A stretch of 64,000 nucleotides of DNA. It comes from Verrucomicrobiota bacterium. Lineage in GTDB: Bacteria; Verrucomicrobiota; Verrucomicrobiia; Limisphaerales; J093. Position numbers and translations under genes: made by a program. The notes beneath the pieces were generated by a model. It was not told the origin of the DNA. It saw only the letters and a program-made list of their open reading frames with translations, and did no database searches. Every line of letters begins with the position of its first letter. The stretch's first letter is position 1. This document shows, piece after piece, positions 8,613 to 53,305 of the stretch. The stretch is from the NCBI GenBank assembly GCA_016871715.1, contig VHCO01000011.1, positions 1-64,000 on the forward strand, read 5' to 3'.

Positions 8613-8817
8613 ACTCCGCCGAACGCCACCGTCGCTTTCGCTTCGGTTTCCCCTGGTCCTGGTCGGGGATCGCACGTCAACGCCAAAGCCACGACGACGG
8701 CGACGCGGATCCACGGGCAACGGGCAACGGGCACGCGGGCACGGGGATCGAACCCGACGCCCGAGGCAAACCGTCTCAGCCCGAGCGTCATACAGGCCCT
8801 CAGGTTCTACGTCATCC

Positions 8818-8840
8818 TGCCAGGCAAAAAGACGTTGACA
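8818..8840 (+). repeat. 23-bp TTGACA motif, copy 1
   Basis: TGCCAGG followed by AAAAAGACGTTGACA. It shares TGnCA, AAAAG and TTGACA at fixed spacing with copies at 9124, 47771, 47910, 50057 and 50141. There is no matching -10 box 16-18 bases downstream. Confidence 0.6.
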
Positions 8841-9123
8841 CCATTCCTATCAGGCCGTTCGCCCCACCCACCTTAAACGGGAGTGTGGGAAACTGGGAAG
8901 GAAGCCGCTGGTGTCGAGTGGGGTACGGGCTAACCAGGCACGTCTGTTCTTCAGGTTCCCCTACGAACCCTCCACCAGGCTTTCCGCGTGTGAACGAAGC
9001 TGCGGTCGGACCGCCGTTCCTTCTTCGTCGCCTTCGTTCGCCTCTCATGTGGCCGCGTCAAGAGGCATTGACAACTCTGTCGTTGACAAGCCTCTCTGCA
9101 CGCACCGCGGGCGGTATTGTATT

Positions 9124-9146
9124 TGCCAGGTCAAAAGAAGTTGACA
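9124..9146 (+). repeat. 23-bp TTGACA motif, copy 2
   Basis: TGCCAGGT followed by CAAAAGAAGTTGACA, 306 bp after copy 1 in the same orientation. It is about 140 bp upstream of the reductase gene. No convincing -10 box follows. Confidence 0.6.
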
Positions 9147-9284
9147 CTGAGGGGGAGCCGACCGAAACGAGGGAGAGAGCGAGAGGAGAGGACGATTCGG
9201 CCGTTGACGCAACGGTTTTTGGGGAGACAATGGATAGCTTAATGATGTTGTTTAAATCGACTGCTGTTGCCCCAATGCTTTGCT

Positions 9285-10001
9285 ATGGCTAAACCGACCT
9301 TGGAGATGACGATCGAGCGGGTGAGGATGGATCTGCCCGACACCAAGACCCTGCGCCTGACCTGGCCTGACGGCTATGACCCGCAGTTCAAGACCGGGCA
9401 GTTCATCACGCTGCATTGGCCCGAGGCAACCGACTATAAACGGGCCTATTCGCTCTGCTCCTGCGCGTTAGACCGCGGCTACTTCGACGTGACGGTCAAG
9501 CGCGAGGGCAAGATGGGTACGCGGATAGTGGACTGGGCACGGGTGGGCGACAAGCTCTGGGTCCTGCCCCCCGCCGGCAAGTTTCTCCCGGTTTATGAAC
9601 CGGACACACACTTGGTCTGCATCGCTGGCGGGTCGGGGGTTACCCCTTTTCGCGCCTTCGCGAGGGAATCGACGCTGCGAGGTTTGACGACGCGGATCAC
9701 GATACTCTACAGCGTGCGTCACCCGGGTGAGATCATCTTCCAAGACGAGTTTCGCCAACTCGAGGCCGCCAACCCACAGTTTCGCCTGCTCGTTACCTGC
9801 ACGCGATTAGCCCAGGAGCAACCGTGGGAGGGTCGCCGGGGCCGGATCGACCCCGGCTGGATCGGAGCGCAGGTGGAGGACTTGGCCAAGACGGTCTTCT
9901 ATGCCTGCGGCTCCCAGGGGTTGGTGGATGCGGCCGAAGAGATGGTCGTTCGGCATCTTGGCGCGTCCAAAGCCCAGATGAAGACCGAGAAGTGGTGGTG
10001 A
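9285..10001 (+). CDS. Ferredoxin/flavodoxin-NADP reductase-like FAD oxidoreductase
   Basis: The 238-aa protein carries a two-domain flavin reductase fold. The FAD-binding beta barrel (about 1-95) has RAYSLCS, the RxYS flavin motif. The pyridine-nucleotide domain (about 98-238) has IAGGSGVTPFRA and FYACGSQGLV. No [2Fe-2S] domain is attached, so an external ferredoxin or other partner is expected. The track start at 9267 is TTG; I prefer the in-frame ATG at 9285, which gives MAKPTLEM. The C terminus ends in two tryptophans. A partial copy of its own 3' end lies 72 bp downstream. Confidence 0.85.
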   Translation: MAKPTLEMTIERVRMDLPDTKTLRLTWPDGYDPQFKTGQFITLHWPEATDYKRAYSLCSCALDRGYFDVTVKREGKMGTRIVDWARVGDKLWVLPPAGKFLPVYEPDTHLVCIAGGSGVTPFRAFARESTLRGLTTRITILYSVRHPGEIIFQDEFRQLEAANPQFRLLVTCTRLAQEQPWEGRRGRIDPGWIGAQVEDLAKTVFYACGSQGLVDAAEEMVVRHLGASKAQMKTEKWW

Positions 10002-10382
10002 CCGCCACGGACGTGTCGCGCCGGCATTCCAACCGACACCGTGCCGCCGATGAAGACCGAGGAGTCGTAGTGACCTGCCACGACGATCCGCAGGGCGGTG
10101 GTCCGAGGTTGCGCGAATCCAACTCCTGGTTCAGGATCGGCCTCGATTGACGCGAGGGGTCGAGGGGTAGCCCTAGCGGTTCGCCCCAGCGGTTGCGGCT
10201 CAAGCGGTTGTCTCTGCGCGACGATAGGCTAGGGTGGCGTCGGTTGTCTCGCAGTGTGCCGCTGGGTGCCGGATGGGCGCGGCGGTGACGGGGGACCGAT
10301 TTGTGGATTGGCACCGCAACTTTTCGAGTTGGCTGCTGTATAACCCGTTGGCACGTTGGCACACACGGTTAACGCATAGCGC
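10002..10382. other. Intergenic region with partial duplicate of the upstream gene end
   Basis: This 381-bp spacer contains the decayed repeat at 10049-10085 and otherwise no supported gene. The ORFs at 9824 and 10234 have no motifs and read through the reductase and the ATPase gene in other frames. Confidence 0.5.
10049..10085 (+). repeat. Decayed direct repeat of the reductase gene 3' end
   Basis: GATGAAGACCGAGGAG followed by a TAG and TGACC repeats the gene end at 9977-10013 (GATGAAGACCGAGAAG, then the stop TGACC) with a period of 72 bp. About 31 of 36 positions match. In the gene frame the copy reads MKTEES-stop, against MKTEKWW-stop in the original. Confidence 0.6.
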
Positions 10383-12344
10383 ATGGCGTATCGATCAGTT
10401 AAAGCGGTCTTGGCTCAAGCGGCTCTGCTTTCGGCGGAGCAGGTCGAGGCGTGGCATGCGCACTGCCAGCGCGCCCGGCGAGCGGCCCAAGACAGCCAGA
10501 GCCAGGGGCAAACCGAGACACCGCCGCCGCCGTCTCTGATGGGGTACTTGCAGAGCGAGACACAACTGGACGAACCGGTGCTGTTGCGGCGGCTGGCGGA
10601 GGCCCTAGGTTGGCCATACCTCGAGAGCGCGCGTCCGCCGGTGGACGTGGCGGCTGAAGACGTCGGGCGCCTGGCACTCGAGTTGCCGGCGAAGGTGGCC
10701 TTTGGCCATCTGGCGGTGCCAGTGGTGGTGCGGGAGGGTCGCCTGGTTCTGGCGGTCAATAATCCATTTGACTCCGGCATGCTCAGCGCCGTGCAATTCA
10801 GCGCCAAGCGTCCGGTCCAGTTTGCCCTGGTGCCGCGGGAGCAGATCGAGGACGCGCTCAAGGAACGGTACGGCATGGGCGCCACGGCCTTGGACCAGAT
10901 GGTGGACGAGAGCGAGCCGGACCTCGAGATCACGGGAGACAAAGAGATCGCCGGTGGCGACCAAGAGGCGAGCGTGATCAAGTTCGTCAATGACGTGATC
11001 AAGGAGGCCTACAATGGGCGCGCGACGGACATCCACTTCGAGCCCATGGAGCGGCGGTTACGGATTCGATACCGGATTGATGGCATGCTCTACGAGCAGC
11101 CTCTGCCGCCTCAATTGAGCGATCCCAAGAAGGTGAAGCATTACCAGGCGGCCATCATTTCGCGCGTCAAGGTGATGTCGGGGATGAACATTGCCGAGAA
11201 GCGGCTGCCGCAGGACGGCCGGATCAACGTCCGCATCAGCAAACAGGAGCTGGACATCCGGGTATCGACGGTACCTACGGTCTACGGCGAGAGCGTGTCG
11301 CTGCGGTTGCTCAATCGGGGCGATACGGCTTTCAACATTAGCAACTTGGGCCTGTCAGCCTCGCAGCAGGGCGTGATTGAGAACCTGATCAAGAAGCCCC
11401 ACGGCATTTTCCTCGTGACCGGCCCCACGGGGTCGGGCAAGTCCACCTCGTTGTATTGCTTTCTTAGTTTCATCAACCGGGAGACCAAGGGCACGAAGCG
11501 GATTCTCACGGTGGAAGAGCCGGTCGAGTACGAAATCCAAGGCGTGAACCAGATCGCCGTGCGCCCGGAGATTGGGCTGAGCTTTGCCGTCGGTTTGCGG
11601 CATATCCTGCGGCAAGATCCCAACGTGGTAATGGTGGGGGAGATTCGCGACCTCGAGACGGCCGAGATCGCGATTCGCGCGGCGCTGACGGGGCATTTGG
11701 TGTTCAGCACGCTGCACACGAACGATGCCGCCAGCGCCTTCACGCGGTTGATCGACATGGGGATCGAGCCGTTCCTGGTCGCCTCGTCGGTCGAGGCGGT
11801 CATGGCCCAACGCCTGGTCCGGACGGTGTGCCCGGATTGCCAGACCCAGCTCGCGGAAGGGAAGGACTACAGCCTCGAGTATCTGCTGCGGAAGAAGTTC
11901 CCCGCGGAGTGGGCTGGGGGCGCGACGTTCTACAAGGGAGCCGGCTGCGACGAGTGCCGGCAGCTTGGCTATCAAGGGCGCACGGGTATCTACGAGCTGC
12001 TGGTGATGACCGAGAAGGTCCGACCCTTGGTGATGGAACGAAGTCCCGCCTCGCGCATCGTCCAACAGGCCAAGGCCGACGGTTCGCTGACCTTGCGCGA
12101 AGATGGTTGGCTCAAGACCCAGGCGGAACGGATCCAAGTGGGCCGTGACGGCAAACCCATCCACCCGCCAACGACCATCGAGGAGGTGTTGCGGGTGACC
12201 CAGATCGAGGAACACATCGACGAACTAGCCGGCCCAAGCCACACCCCTCCGACCGCCGCGGCAGCGCCGGCGGCCAGCTCGCCCGGCCACGAGCCGGATC
12301 CCATCGCCCTCAAGCATGGCAGTGGGCTGCTGGATGAGTCCTAG
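10383..12344 (+). CDS. Type II secretion / type IV pilus assembly ATPase (GspE/PilB family)
   Basis: This cytoplasmic hexameric ATPase of 653 aa powers pseudopilus or pilus extension. The N-terminal MshEN/T2SSE-N-like domain spans about 1-175. The ATPase core has Walker A GPTGSGKST at about 347, an Asp box (PVEYEIQGVNQI region), a Walker B region around VVMVGEIRDLETAEIA, and a His box FSTLHTNDA. The zinc-binding C4 element is intact: CPDC at about 482 and CDEC at about 521. A 40-residue Ala/Pro-rich tail is unusual. It is followed by GspL/PilN-, GspM/PilO- and secretin-like genes, so it is the motor of this cluster. No GspF/PilC gene is in the window. Confidence 0.93.
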   Translation: MAYRSVKAVLAQAALLSAEQVEAWHAHCQRARRAAQDSQSQGQTETPPPPSLMGYLQSETQLDEPVLLRRLAEALGWPYLESARPPVDVAAEDVGRLALELPAKVAFGHLAVPVVVREGRLVLAVNNPFDSGMLSAVQFSAKRPVQFALVPREQIEDALKERYGMGATALDQMVDESEPDLEITGDKEIAGGDQEASVIKFVNDVIKEAYNGRATDIHFEPMERRLRIRYRIDGMLYEQPLPPQLSDPKKVKHYQAAIISRVKVMSGMNIAEKRLPQDGRINVRISKQELDIRVSTVPTVYGESVSLRLLNRGDTAFNISNLGLSASQQGVIENLIKKPHGIFLVTGPTGSGKSTSLYCFLSFINRETKGTKRILTVEEPVEYEIQGVNQIAVRPEIGLSFAVGLRHILRQDPNVVMVGEIRDLETAEIAIRAALTGHLVFSTLHTNDAASAFTRLIDMGIEPFLVASSVEAVMAQRLVRTVCPDCQTQLAEGKDYSLEYLLRKKFPAEWAGGATFYKGAGCDECRQLGYQGRTGIYELLVMTEKVRPLVMERSPASRIVQQAKADGSLTLREDGWLKTQAERIQVGRDGKPIHPPTTIEEVLRVTQIEEHIDELAGPSHTPPTAAAAPAASSPGHEPDPIALKHGSGLLDES

Positions 12345-46261: not shown

Positions 46262-47688
46262 CGTTCTCCTCCTTTCTGCTGGCCTTCTTGCCTGAATTGG
46301 CGCTGCTCGTGGGTGCGCTGGTCCTGTTCGTCATTTCCTTGGGCGAGGAGCGCGTGGACCGCGCGCGATCAGCCGCTCTTCTCGTCGCCGCCGCCGCCGC
46401 GGTCGCAAGCGCGCTGGGGTTGGGCCAACAGGCGCTCTTGTTCGATGGCGCCTACCGCATCGATGCCTTCTCGCAGTGGCTCAAGCTGGCGTTGACGGTC
46501 GGCTTTCTGTTGATCTTGTTGGCTAGCCGGGAGCTGCCCGACATCCGGCGCGACGTGAAGCCGGAGTATTACTTCTTCCTGGCGCTGAGCGTGTGCGGGT
46601 TGGTGATGTTAGTCAGTTGCGTCGAGGTCATCACCTTGGTGGTGGCCCTGGAGTTGTCCGCCTTCCCCCTGTATTTCCTGGTGGCGATGCGGCGGGAACG
46701 CGCCGGGCAGCGCAGTCAGATGGAGGCTGCCATCAAGTACATCATGTTCGGCATCGCCGCCAATGGGATCATGCTCTTCGGCCTGAGTTACCTGTTCGGC
46801 CTGACCGGAACGACATCGTTGCAGGGCATGGCCGCCCAGCTCGGGCCGGTCCTCCAGTCGCCCTTGGCCATGGTGGGTCTGGGGCTGACCTGTGTCGGGC
46901 TGTTCTACAAACTCGCCGTGTTCCCGTTCCATTTCTGGACCCCGGACGTTTACCAAGGCGCCTCGAACGAGACTGCTAGCCTCGTCGCTTCGCTCCCAAA
47001 GGTCGGGGCTGTGGCGGTCTTGGTCCGCTTCACCTCGCTGGCTGCGCCTGACGATCGGACCCTGCCCGGGCTGATCGCGCTGCTAGCCGGCGCCTCGATG
47101 TTCTACGGTAACCTCATTGCGCTGCAGCAGAAGGACCTCAAACGTCTGCTCGGGTTTTCGGGAATTGCCCATGCTGGCTATGCCTTGGTGGGGTTTGTGG
47201 CCCTGGACACCGCCGGCTACACAGCCGCCCTGTATTACATCGTCGGCTACTTGTTCATGGTTCTGGCCGGCTTCGTCGTCATCTCCCATGTCTCCCGAGA
47301 TGGCGCCAACGTCGCCCTCGAGGAACTCGCCGGCCTGCACCGGCGAGCGCCCCTCCTGGCGCTGACCCTGGTCGTGGGCATGTTCGCCTTGGCTGGCCTT
47401 CCCCCTTTCGTCGGGTTTTTCGGCAAGCTAGCGTTGTTGAAGGCGGCTCTGGCCAAGGGCTATTTGGCCCTAGTGATTGTCACCGTGATTAACGCCGCGA
47501 TTGCCGTCTACTATTACCTGGCCGTCGTCCGCGAAGCCTGCTTCCGGGATCCGGGCGACCAGCGCGCGATTCCCCTCTGTTGGTCCGCGCGCACGCTGTG
47601 CGGCTTGTTGATCGCCGGGATCCTGCTCTTGGGCGTCGGCCCCGCCCGAGTTCTCGAAACCATCGCCGGTTCGCTCTCCCCCCCGTGA
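46258..47688 (+). CDS. nuoN: NADH-quinone oxidoreductase subunit N
   Basis: NuoN is the last antiporter-like subunit of the membrane arm. The 476-aa protein begins at ATG 46258 overlapping nuoM; the track extension to 46153 lies inside nuoM. Features are VVALELSAFPLYFLVAMRR (TM5 Glu), LFYKLAVFPFHFWTPDVYQGA (TM7 Lys), LPKVGAVAVLVRF and FFGKLALLKAAL. It ends the operon. A decayed copy of its last 86 bp lies about 340 bp downstream. Confidence 0.94.
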   Translation: MTFSSFLLAFLPELALLVGALVLFVISLGEERVDRARSAALLVAAAAAVASALGLGQQALLFDGAYRIDAFSQWLKLALTVGFLLILLASRELPDIRRDVKPEYYFFLALSVCGLVMLVSCVEVITLVVALELSAFPLYFLVAMRRERAGQRSQMEAAIKYIMFGIAANGIMLFGLSYLFGLTGTTSLQGMAAQLGPVLQSPLAMVGLGLTCVGLFYKLAVFPFHFWTPDVYQGASNETASLVASLPKVGAVAVLVRFTSLAAPDDRTLPGLIALLAGASMFYGNLIALQQKDLKRLLGFSGIAHAGYALVGFVALDTAGYTAALYYIVGYLFMVLAGFVVISHVSRDGANVALEELAGLHRRAPLLALTLVVGMFALAGLPPFVGFFGKLALLKAALAKGYLALVIVTVINAAIAVYYYLAVVREACFRDPGDQRAIPLCWSARTLCGLLIAGILLLGVGPARVLETIAGSLSPP

Positions 47689-47770
47689 CCACTCCATACT
47701 CCATAACCACGGTGCCGTGGCGGGTAGACGTCATCGCCTCGGACGCCTTGGCACTCTGGCACTTACAACA

Positions 47771-47793
47771 TGCCAGATAAAAAGACGTTGACA
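47771..47793 (+). repeat. 23-bp TTGACA motif, copy 3
   Basis: TGCCAGAT followed by AAAAAGACGTTGACA. Its last 15 bases are identical to those of copy 1 at 8818, almost 39 kb away. Confidence 0.65.
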
Positions 47794-47909
47794 ACCCGCA
47801 TCTGCTCATCTGCTTGGCTGACCGAGCATGTCGGTTGTCAAAAGACCCATCTCCAGTGCGTTGGCACGGCGGCTTTGGCCTCTGGCACTGTCCTGTCAGA
47901 CTGACGGTA

Positions 47910-47932
47910 TGGCGGGTATAAAGTTATTGACA
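47910..47932 (+). repeat. 23-bp TTGACA motif, copy 4 (diverged)
   Basis: TGGCGGGT followed by ATAAAGTTATTGACA, 139 bp after copy 3 and in the same orientation. Confidence 0.5.
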
Positions 47933-48024
47933 GCGACAGAGGAGAGATCCGGGGGTTGGCGTGCGAGTCTTCTCGGTGCTTCTTGGTCTCCCCCTCGCTT
48001 GGTCGTTGGCCCGCACCTTGTGCG

Positions 48025-48115
48025 GTGCGGCTTGTCGATCTGCCAGGATCCTGCCGTTGGGCGTTGCCCAAGCCCGAGTTCGCTAAGCCATCGCCATCGC
48101 CGCTTCGCTTTCCCC
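48025..48115 (+). pseudogene. Degraded duplicate of the nuoN 3' end
   Basis: GTGCGGCTTGTCGATC, then GGATCCTG, GCCCGAGTT, GCCATCGCC and TTCGCTTTCCCC align in order with 47598-47683 at the end of nuoN. By eye about 70 of 84 aligned bases match, with a 1-base and a 6-base insertion. The insertions destroy the reading frame. It cannot encode a functional product. Confidence 0.75.
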
Positions 48116-50026: not shown

Positions 50027-50056
50027 CCAGCGGGCTCGCCGTCGGCGTGCGCAATT

Positions 50057-50079
50057 TGACATAGAAAAAGTAGTTGACA
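50057..50079 (+). repeat. 23-bp TTGACA motif, copy 5
   Basis: TGACATAG followed by AAAAAGTAGTTGACA; preceded by TGCGCAAT. Confidence 0.65.
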
Positions 50080-50140
50080 GAGTAGCCTAATACCGTGTGA
50101 GGGCACAGAGAGTTCCATCTGCTCCTGGGCCTGCACAATA

Positions 50141-50163
50141 TGACACATAAGAAGTAATTGACA
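50141..50163 (+). repeat. 23-bp TTGACA motif, copy 6
   Basis: TGACACAT followed by AAGAAGTAATTGACA; preceded by TGCACAAT. It is 71 bp from the 3' end of the oppositely transcribed tRNA-Pro gene. Confidence 0.65.
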
Positions 50164-50233
50164 CCACAAGACCTTCGACACGGCGGGGGGCACTGAAGGG
50201 AAATCACCAGATGGCGCAGTGAGGATGGGGGGA

Positions 50234-50311
<78 letters not shown>

Positions 50312-50677
50312 AAGCCAAACCGGACAGGACAGGATCTTCCACAGGTTCCCCTAGGCCTGCAACCTCAATCGACACCTCAATCGACACCCCACGTGGCACC
50401 CATGGCACCTCGGCACCCGGGTCCTGCCTCGCTTCCTCGCTCCGCGCCCTCCGTTTCGTTACGGGCGCGCGATGGGGGGAGCGGGTGGGCTGGGCCCATG
50501 GCTCGCCTGCGGCTTGGGGCGCTCCGACGACCTACGACGTGCGGCGTGTCAGAACGTTCTCTAAACTTGACTAGAAGGCACTTGCGCTTATGCTGCCCGG
50601 TAGCGGTCGCGGCAGGACTCGGGCTGGGCGGACGTGGCGTGGGCCGGGTGGCCCGGCGGCGAATATGGAGGCAGAAG
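50312..50677. other. Intergenic region between tRNA-Pro and the CRTAC1-like gene
   Basis: The track ORF 50219-53305 runs through here and through the tRNA, but the first 153 codons show no protein features. The region contains a tandem 12-mer at 50362-50385. A promoter for the tRNA (minus strand) should lie here; I see no clear boxes. Confidence 0.5.
50362..50385 (+). repeat. Tandem 12-bp repeat, two copies
   Basis: ACCTCAATCGAC occurs twice in perfect tandem, then ACC begins a third unit. It lies 51 bp upstream of the tRNA-Pro 5' end. Confidence 0.85.
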
Positions 50678-53305
50678 ATGGAGGCGGAGTGGTGGATGAC
50701 TGAGACACGGCATATGCGTGCTAGGAGTTTAGGACTGATCGGGCGCATTCTCGATGGGCGGTTGTTTGCGCGAGTCAGTTGCGTCCTCGTGTTGGGTTTT
50801 CTCACGGCCGGTGCGGCTTTGCCGCCGTCGGCGTTGTCGCCGTCGAGCGGGCGCGGTGTGGGTGTGGGGGCTGGCTTTGTGGACGTGGCTCGGGAGGCGG
50901 GCATAGGGCATCGGCATCGGAAGCCGGTGTTGGATCGGCAACTCGACAACATCATGTCGTGGGTGTGCAGTGTGGGGGCGGCGGCGGCGGCGGCTGACTT
51001 CAACCGGGACGGCTGGCTCGACTTGTATGTGACGAGTTCGTGCAAGGGTTACCCCAATTACTTGTACCGGAACAACGGGGACGGGACCTTCATGGAGGTG
51101 GGGCGGGCGGTTGGGGTGGCGGACATCAACCACGAGGCGGGGGCGAGCATGGACTGTGTCTGGGGCGATTTCGACAACGACGGTTGGCCGGATCTGTACG
51201 TGGTGCGGTGGGGGTACGATGTGCTCTTTCGGAACGAGGGGGACGGGACGTTCACGGACGTGACAGCGGAGCGGTTTCGGCGGCGGGACGGCACGCCTGG
51301 TACCGATTGGGCCAACGGCAATGCGGCGGTTTTTTTGGATTACAACCTGGACGGTCGCCTGGATTTATATGTGGGCAACTACTTTGCGCCGTTTAACTTG
51401 TGGCATCTTGACACGACCTGCATCATGCACGATGACTTCGAGAAGTCTCGCAACGCCGGCCGCAATTTCCTGTATCGCCAGAACCCGGACGGGACCTTCA
51501 GCGAAGTCGGCGCGGCGTTGGGTGTGGATGATCCGGGTTGGACGCTGGCGGTCGGCGCGGCTGACCTGAACAACGACGGCTGGCCGGATTTGTATGTGGC
51601 GGACGACTTCGGGCCCGACCAGTTATTTGTGAACGATCAGGCCGGTGGGTTCAAGAACCAGACGGACACGGCGATTGGGTACGACACGAAGAAGGGGATG
51701 AACGTCGATTTCGGGGACGTGGACGGCGATGGTTGGCTGGAGATCTATGTGGCCAACATCACGACGGCTGAGTACCTCCAGGAAGGCAACATGCTTTGGC
51801 ACAACAACGGTCTCGACGCCGCGGGACAGCTCACCTTTACGGACATCTCCCTGGAGACGGGCACCTACGATGGCGGCTGGGGTTGGGGCGCGAAGTTCTT
51901 CGATGCCGACCACGACGGGGACCTGGACCTTTTAGCGGTCAACGGATTCATCAGCGCCGGCCTAGGCAACTACTGGTACGACCTCGCTTCCTGGACCGTC
52001 AAAGGCCAAGACGTCACCGACGCCCGCAATTGGCCCACGATTGGGGATCGGTCTTTTTCCGGCTACGAGAGGAGTCGGTTTTGGCGCAACGAGGGCGGTT
52101 ACGCCTTTAGCGAGCGGGCCCGCGACTACGGTTTGGACAGCGACCGGGACGGGCGTGGCCTGGTGTGTTTCGACTACGACAATGACGGGGATCTGGACGT
52201 GTTTGTGGCCAACCAAGATCAACCGCCGCACCTGTATCGTAACGACCTCGAGGGCCCGAGCCACTGGCTCATGGTCCGGCTCGAGGCCAGTCCGGGCGGG
52301 GCCATCAACCGCGACGCCCTCGGCGCGCGCGTCACGGCGGTGACTGCTCGCGGTCGGCAGATTCGCGAACATAATGGCGGCAAGTGCTATGCTGGCCAGA
52401 GCGATCCGCGCCTGCACTTTGGCTTGGGCCCGGAGCGCCAGGTCCAACTGCTCGAAGTCCGCTGGCCCGATGGTGGGCTACAGTATCTCGAGAATGTTCC
52501 TGCCAATCGAGTCCTGACCGTCCGGCAGAACCCCGATCAATACGCTAGCCAAGTGGCCTTATCAACTGGTCCGGCGAAAGCCTGGGTGCCTCGCCCGAGC
52601 GCGCCCCAGCGGGCGGTTCCGGCCATGTCTGCGGCCGAGCTCGACCGGTTGCTGACCGAGATGGAGGGCGAGTTGAGGGGCTCGCTGGCGGGGTACAAGA
52701 TCGCCAGCAGTTACCGTGCTCGCTGCGCGGACTACGGCCAGCAGGATCGGGCGATCAAGTTCTTCGAGAGTCTGATCGTTCATCCGGCTACCCAGCAGCG
52801 GGCGCGCCTCGAGTTAGCCTGCGCGTTGGTGGATAAGATCCCCACTTGCGGCGGCATGGCGGCGATCGTGAGCAAAGGCACGCTCGCCCGCAAATCCCTC
52901 GATCAACTCGACGCCTATCTCGAACGCGAGCCCGAGTCTTGGGTCGGGTACTACACCCGGGGCATGAATCATCTGCATTGGCCGCGCGCCCTGCGCCACT
53001 CGGACGATGCCGCGGCGGACTTGCGGCGTTGTCTCGAGCTCCAGGCGCGCGAGGGCGGGGGGGCTGCCAAGCCGTATTATCTGCGGCCACACGTCGCTTT
53101 GGGCGATGCCCTGACCAAGGCCAAGGCGTACGCAGAGGCGCGCGCCGCTTGGCGGGTTGGCCAGCAACACTTCCCCGACGCCCGCGCGTTGGCGGAGCGC
53201 TTGGCCATTGAGGATGACGTTGAACTGCTCAAGTACGTCGAGGAACAACGGAGTCTCGAGCGGCCGATCGATACGGATCTGTCTTTCCTGGACCGAGAGC
53301 GGTAG
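50678..53305 (+). CDS. Exported FG-GAP/ASPIC (CRTAC1-like) protein with C-terminal helical repeats
   Basis: I place the start at ATG 50678, six bases after GGAGG, giving 875 aa. In-frame ATGs at 50696 and 50714 are alternatives. A signal peptide follows (FARVSCVLVLGFLTAGAALP). The propeller has calcium-type loops DFNRDGWLD, DFDNDGWPD, DYNLDGRLD, DLNNDGWPD, DVDGDGWLE, DADHDGDLD and DYDNDGDLD. The ASPIC/UnbV module spans about 555-625 (EVRWPDGGLQYLENVP). The last 230 residues are helical and TPR-like (LRPHVALGDALTKAKAYAEA). It is longer than the first CRTAC1-like protein at 2960 and has a signal peptide rather than an anchor. Confidence 0.87.
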   Translation: MEAEWWMTETRHMRARSLGLIGRILDGRLFARVSCVLVLGFLTAGAALPPSALSPSSGRGVGVGAGFVDVAREAGIGHRHRKPVLDRQLDNIMSWVCSVGAAAAAADFNRDGWLDLYVTSSCKGYPNYLYRNNGDGTFMEVGRAVGVADINHEAGASMDCVWGDFDNDGWPDLYVVRWGYDVLFRNEGDGTFTDVTAERFRRRDGTPGTDWANGNAAVFLDYNLDGRLDLYVGNYFAPFNLWHLDTTCIMHDDFEKSRNAGRNFLYRQNPDGTFSEVGAALGVDDPGWTLAVGAADLNNDGWPDLYVADDFGPDQLFVNDQAGGFKNQTDTAIGYDTKKGMNVDFGDVDGDGWLEIYVANITTAEYLQEGNMLWHNNGLDAAGQLTFTDISLETGTYDGGWGWGAKFFDADHDGDLDLLAVNGFISAGLGNYWYDLASWTVKGQDVTDARNWPTIGDRSFSGYERSRFWRNEGGYAFSERARDYGLDSDRDGRGLVCFDYDNDGDLDVFVANQDQPPHLYRNDLEGPSHWLMVRLEASPGGAINRDALGARVTAVTARGRQIREHNGGKCYAGQSDPRLHFGLGPERQVQLLEVRWPDGGLQYLENVPANRVLTVRQNPDQYASQVALSTGPAKAWVPRPSAPQRAVPAMSAAELDRLLTEMEGELRGSLAGYKIASSYRARCADYGQQDRAIKFFESLIVHPATQQRARLELACALVDKIPTCGGMAAIVSKGTLARKSLDQLDAYLEREPESWVGYYTRGMNHLHWPRALRHSDDAAADLRRCLELQAREGGGAAKPYYLRPHVALGDALTKAKAYAEARAAWRVGQQHFPDARALAERLAIEDDVELLKYVEEQRSLERPIDTDLSFLDRER

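Follow-up and report, generated by a model that had tools for sequence, protein, structure and literature searches.

Short local and tandem duplications arise by replication slippage or template switching, and integrations into the 3' ends of genes are known as well. Short duplications with microhomology junctions have been described in bacteria, and spontaneous ones have been detected in Salmonella (PMC3411829). The repeat studied here, found at the 3' end of a flavin reductase gene, resembles slippage duplications: it is a short same-strand direct repeat, the copies lie close together and they end regardless of gene borders. However, it is old and diverged, its junctions are unreadable and 45 bp of unrelated sequence separates the copies. 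It also recalls the attachment-site (att) repeats of integrative elements, in that a conserved gene end is repeated directly but imperfectly; however, there is no element between or near the copies and their spacing is 72 bp. Finally, diversity-generating retroelements likewise place one copy at a gene 3' end and one downstream on the same strand. Unlike in those systems, the mismatches here (A/G, G/C and G/A) are not confined to template adenines, and the target is a housekeeping-type oxidoreductase.

The window analyzed was a 64,000-nucleotide stretch of a Verrucomicrobiota genome (contig VHCO01000011.1, positions 1 to 64,000); its features are collected in Table 1. According to the original prediction, the last codons of the flavin reductase gene recur 72 bp downstream. 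The 3' tail indeed has a diverged copy at this distance, with 24 of 27 bases identical (89%), and chance is excluded as its origin; it was the single such repeat found. The predicted agreement of 31 bases in 36 was slightly generous: at a fixed offset of 72 from position 9977, 28 of 36 bases match, and a 1-bp gap raises the count. The three mismatches in the core are A-to-G, G-to-C and G-to-A. A gapped alignment carries the repeat beyond the stop codon (GTGACC-GCCACGGACG / GTGACCTGCCACG-ACG). Past the 27-nt core, similarity continues for about 10 bp with two 1-bp indels, and more weakly to about 28 bases. From 9977 on, successive 12-mers match their counterparts at offset 72 at 12/12, 9/12 and 7/12 positions, while each of the three preceding 12-mers matches at 4/12. 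With so sharp a 5' edge, the repeat is not a tandem unit that is evenly similar along its 72 bp. The edges of the repeat have been blurred by divergence, and junction microhomology is no longer readable.

Table 1. Features of the repeat locus and related elements. Positions refer to the window unless a contig piece (C) is named.
Feature	Position	Strand	Remarks
FAD/NAD(P)-binding oxidoreductase gene (flavin/ferredoxin reductase-like)	9285..10001 (ORF 9267-10001)	+	PF00970 and PF00175; C-terminus MKTEKWW
Copy 1	9977..10003	+	3' tail of the gene itself, with the stop codon and 2 following bases; weak similarity to ~10013-10029
Stretch between copies, 45 bp	10004..10048	+	unlike the sequence upstream of copy 1 (4/12 per 12-mer)
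Copy 2, diverged, non-coding (24/27)	10049..10075	+	weak similarity to ~10085-10100
Spacer, 381 bp, before PilB/GspE-family ATPase gene (10383-12344)	10002..10382	.	G003 has purU here, minus strand
nuoN 3' tail, source of second case	47579..47681	+	NuoN by TIGR01770
Decayed nuoN tail copy in spacer	47991..48115	+	spacing ~428
37-bp motif, six window sites	8808-8844, 9114-9150, 47761-47797, 47900-47936, 50047-50083, 50131-50167	+	
GGTAGGGCGCGCAGTCCTCTGCGCGCCG repeat, example G000 spacers	C6:14040-14250, C65:6840-7110		

With base composition kept, the chance of at least 24 matches in 27 is about 6e-12 per position, about 3e-9 per 500-bp search and about 6e-4 genome-wide (6000 genes x 34 tail windows). 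Against a null of mispaired real tails and spacers from the same genome, a score of 28, that of the repeat, would be reached 0.05-0.15 times per set. No other convincing copy of the tail region was detected in this genome (best other E 0.012).

The direction of the duplication was read from homologues of the oxidoreductase, which are 60-70% identical across the order. Thirty loci were read, namely the gene itself (L009) and 29 non-self homologues (L010-L038). All 29 stop at the matching C-terminus, as EKWG or EKWW and in one case EIWG; most end in MKTEKWG and the nearest relative, G003 (L010), in MKTEKWW, with CILEKWG, LRTEIWG, IRLEKWG and MKVEKWG as variants. Copy 1 is therefore the ancestral gene end, and this conserved end is the source of the repeat. 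Copy 2 reads MKTEES-stop in frame, lacks a start context and is non-coding debris behind the gene's intact TGA. Recurrent stop-codon shifting, the interpretation first offered for such tails, did not hold up: neither gene end has been displaced, as both flavin reductase and nuoN stop where their homologues stop (for nuoN, matches to the closest relatives reach residues 484-489 of 491). No second tail copy was seen by eye in the 110 bases downstream of each of the 29 homologues, the closest of which encodes a protein only 69% identical. Across 58 genomes, exact matches to the tail pattern numbered at most one per genome, with no displaced second tail; matches with one mismatch do exist, several of them in relatives and one in G000 (C33:17439).

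The best explanation, to which we give a probability of roughly 80%, is an ordinary short local duplication that spanned the border between gene and spacer, after which the downstream copy decayed neutrally. This event, of a kind frequent in the long spacers of the genome, would have copied the final ~25 coding bases, the stop codon and ~10-28 spacer bases to a site 72 bp downstream, presumably by slippage or template switching while the DNA was being replicated or repaired. Copy 1 would have stayed the gene end under selection, while copy 2 would have drifted as spacer DNA, acquiring 3 substitutions in 27 bases and then indels. Copy 2 is probably without function, and the protein would have been left unchanged. 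Tail duplications of this sort do no harm, since the gene remains complete in its upstream copy; on this reading they are simply local duplications whose position chanced to straddle a gene end. Short duplication had also been named as the source of the tail copies in the original prediction, and this part of it is likely correct. The flavin reductase and nuoN tail copies are both diverged duplicates.

A remnant of a whole-gene duplication or replacement, in which a second, downstream copy of the gene was deleted except for its tail, would account for the copies being gene tails. It could also be reconciled with an interval that differs from that of G003, where the order is oxidoreductase gene, purU on the minus strand (window 10002-10382 versus L010:2218-3220) and PilB/GspE-like gene. 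However, only ~37-58 bp are common to the copies, similarity begins sharply at 9977, the repeat takes in bases after the stop codon and the genome contains no second copy of the oxidoreductase gene (the next match is 30% identical). We thus consider a gene remnant unlikely. No purU remnant was detectable in spacer 10002-10382, and purU at high identity is absent from the genome, with a 38% partial match only; nothing ties the purU difference from G003 to the repeat.

Had an element integrated at the gene 3' end and later disappeared, its scar would also be a same-strand direct repeat in which one copy sits at the conserved end of the gene. Yet the copies lie just 45 bp apart with neither element nor integrase between them, the 58 genomes hold no exact tail copy elsewhere (G000 has a one-mismatch match on C33) and the downstream stretches of relatives carry no element at the tail. 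An attachment-site scar is therefore highly improbable.

The second tail copy predicted in the same window, that of nuoN, was also real (47614-47667 versus 48042-48095, 81% over 54 nt), and gapped similarity covers ~110 bp of the 3' end of this gene. The scan of gene ends that had been suggested, with 5' ends as control, covered 2.86 Mb of this genome (95 contig pieces, 1584 genes called by a codon-usage model). Repeated 12-mers were masked and spacers of at least 200 bp were retained, leaving 486 usable 3' sides and 561 usable 5' sides. Two further tail copies were detected. The third (C75:14548-15747) is clear, with ~80% identity over 89 positions and a spacing of ~217; it extends 30 bp beyond the stop codon, which fits duplications that ignore gene borders. 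One inverted GTTGAC motif lies between the two copies of this tail. The fourth, at a redoxin gene (C55:3672-4346), is weak, with a score expected ~0.45 times by chance. All four tail copies are same-strand.

Several other top-scoring matches were rejected. Those in C6:12440-14146 and C17 were GGCGCGCAG...CTGCGCGCC palindromic repeat arrays, that in C7 was a short interspersed repeat, rich in GC and lying beyond the stop codon, and that in C45 was an N-terminal motif of pilin-like type, which was attributed to a paralogue. At 5' ends, the C65 match was a repeat array and the C70 and C33 matches were GTTGACA motifs. No genuine 5'-end copy was found among the 561 sides, where the matches consisted of repeat arrays, one pair of motifs and one repeat in coding sequence. 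The literature searched contained no earlier description of copied gene tails like these, nor of the GTTGACA motif.

Tail copies are rare, at 0.8% of genes (4/486, one of them weak). The difference from 5' ends was borderline: Fisher's test, on a comparison picked after the data were seen, gave p=0.046 for 4/486 versus 0/561 and p=0.10 for 3/486 versus 0. The 3'-over-5' excess is suggestive at most. Counted against short local duplication is the fact that the two tail cases clearest to the eye, flavin reductase and nuoN, share one 64-kb window.

To place these numbers, ungapped diverged duplications 30-500 bp apart were counted inside spacers of 200-1200 bp (n=396, 204 kb). Fifty were present in 29 of the 396 spacers and none in mispaired spacers; their spacings of 46-444 bracket both 72 and ~428. 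Tail copies did not exceed the frequency of duplications inside spacers: they occurred at 0.137/kb (4 in 29 kb) versus 0.142/kb for spacers, two rates that are only roughly comparable, as genes were counted in one case and spacers with a duplication in the other, by slightly different scans. The GTTGACA motif occurs in about half of the spacer duplications (26/50), and these may be repeats of a separate kind. When they are set aside, 12 spacers are left and 1.7 tail cases are expected versus 4 seen, about twofold (P=0.10). For 5' ends, no case was seen versus 2.0-4.8 expected (P=0.14-0.008), the lower value (2.0, P=0.14) being that without motif-bearing duplications. Both departures count against short local duplication. 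Whether tails and spacers are taken to have equal rates or, with motif-bearing duplications excluded, rates that differ about twofold, a gene-end mechanism is not needed.

A process specific to 3' ends, copying tails downstream by stop-codon shifting or to provide a functional second tail, would explain four same-strand tail cases against none at 5' ends (p=0.046). We judge it very improbable: the stops sit where those of homologues sit, the rate is not above the spacer background, only 0.8% of genes are affected and selection against 5' duplications would yield an identical bias. It is also quite improbable that this lineage copies tails more than neutral spacer duplication and the 5' ends allow, through transcript ends or the intergenic GTTGACA element, which is found close to three of the four tail copies. 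Taken as a single case, the flavin reductase repeat is ordinary; it shows that, in this Verrucomicrobiota genome, long spacers undergo turnover through short local duplications. Tail copies spotted by eye need this spacer-internal background before any gene-end mechanism is proposed.

A more interesting lead than the tail repeat is the GTTGACA motif itself. This 37-bp intergenic motif, close to YAATNNGMCAGGTTTWTARTNGTTGACA and with GTTGACA at its end, is strong, restricted to the lineage and located in long spacers. In the 2.86 Mb sample, 152-155 sites were counted in 415 kb of spacer, versus 2-3 in 500 genes and none or one in shuffled spacers. Each such spacer contains 1-4 sites, mostly spaced 36-306 bp apart. 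The motif core has 164 matches genome-wide; a variant is present in G001 and G009, which belong to one genus, and there is almost none in other relatives. The motif is not simply a promoter, because it is also present in convergent spacers.

An abundant palindromic interspersed repeat, GGTAGGGCGCGCAGTCCTCTGCGCGCCG, was also observed in G000; 380 kb of spacer contained ~60-75 copies, which in places form arrays. Searching the 64-kb window against Rfam returned a tRNA as the sole match. This tRNA (50237-50311, minus strand) lies antisense inside a long ORF (50219-53305), and the true start of the ORF is therefore probably further downstream.
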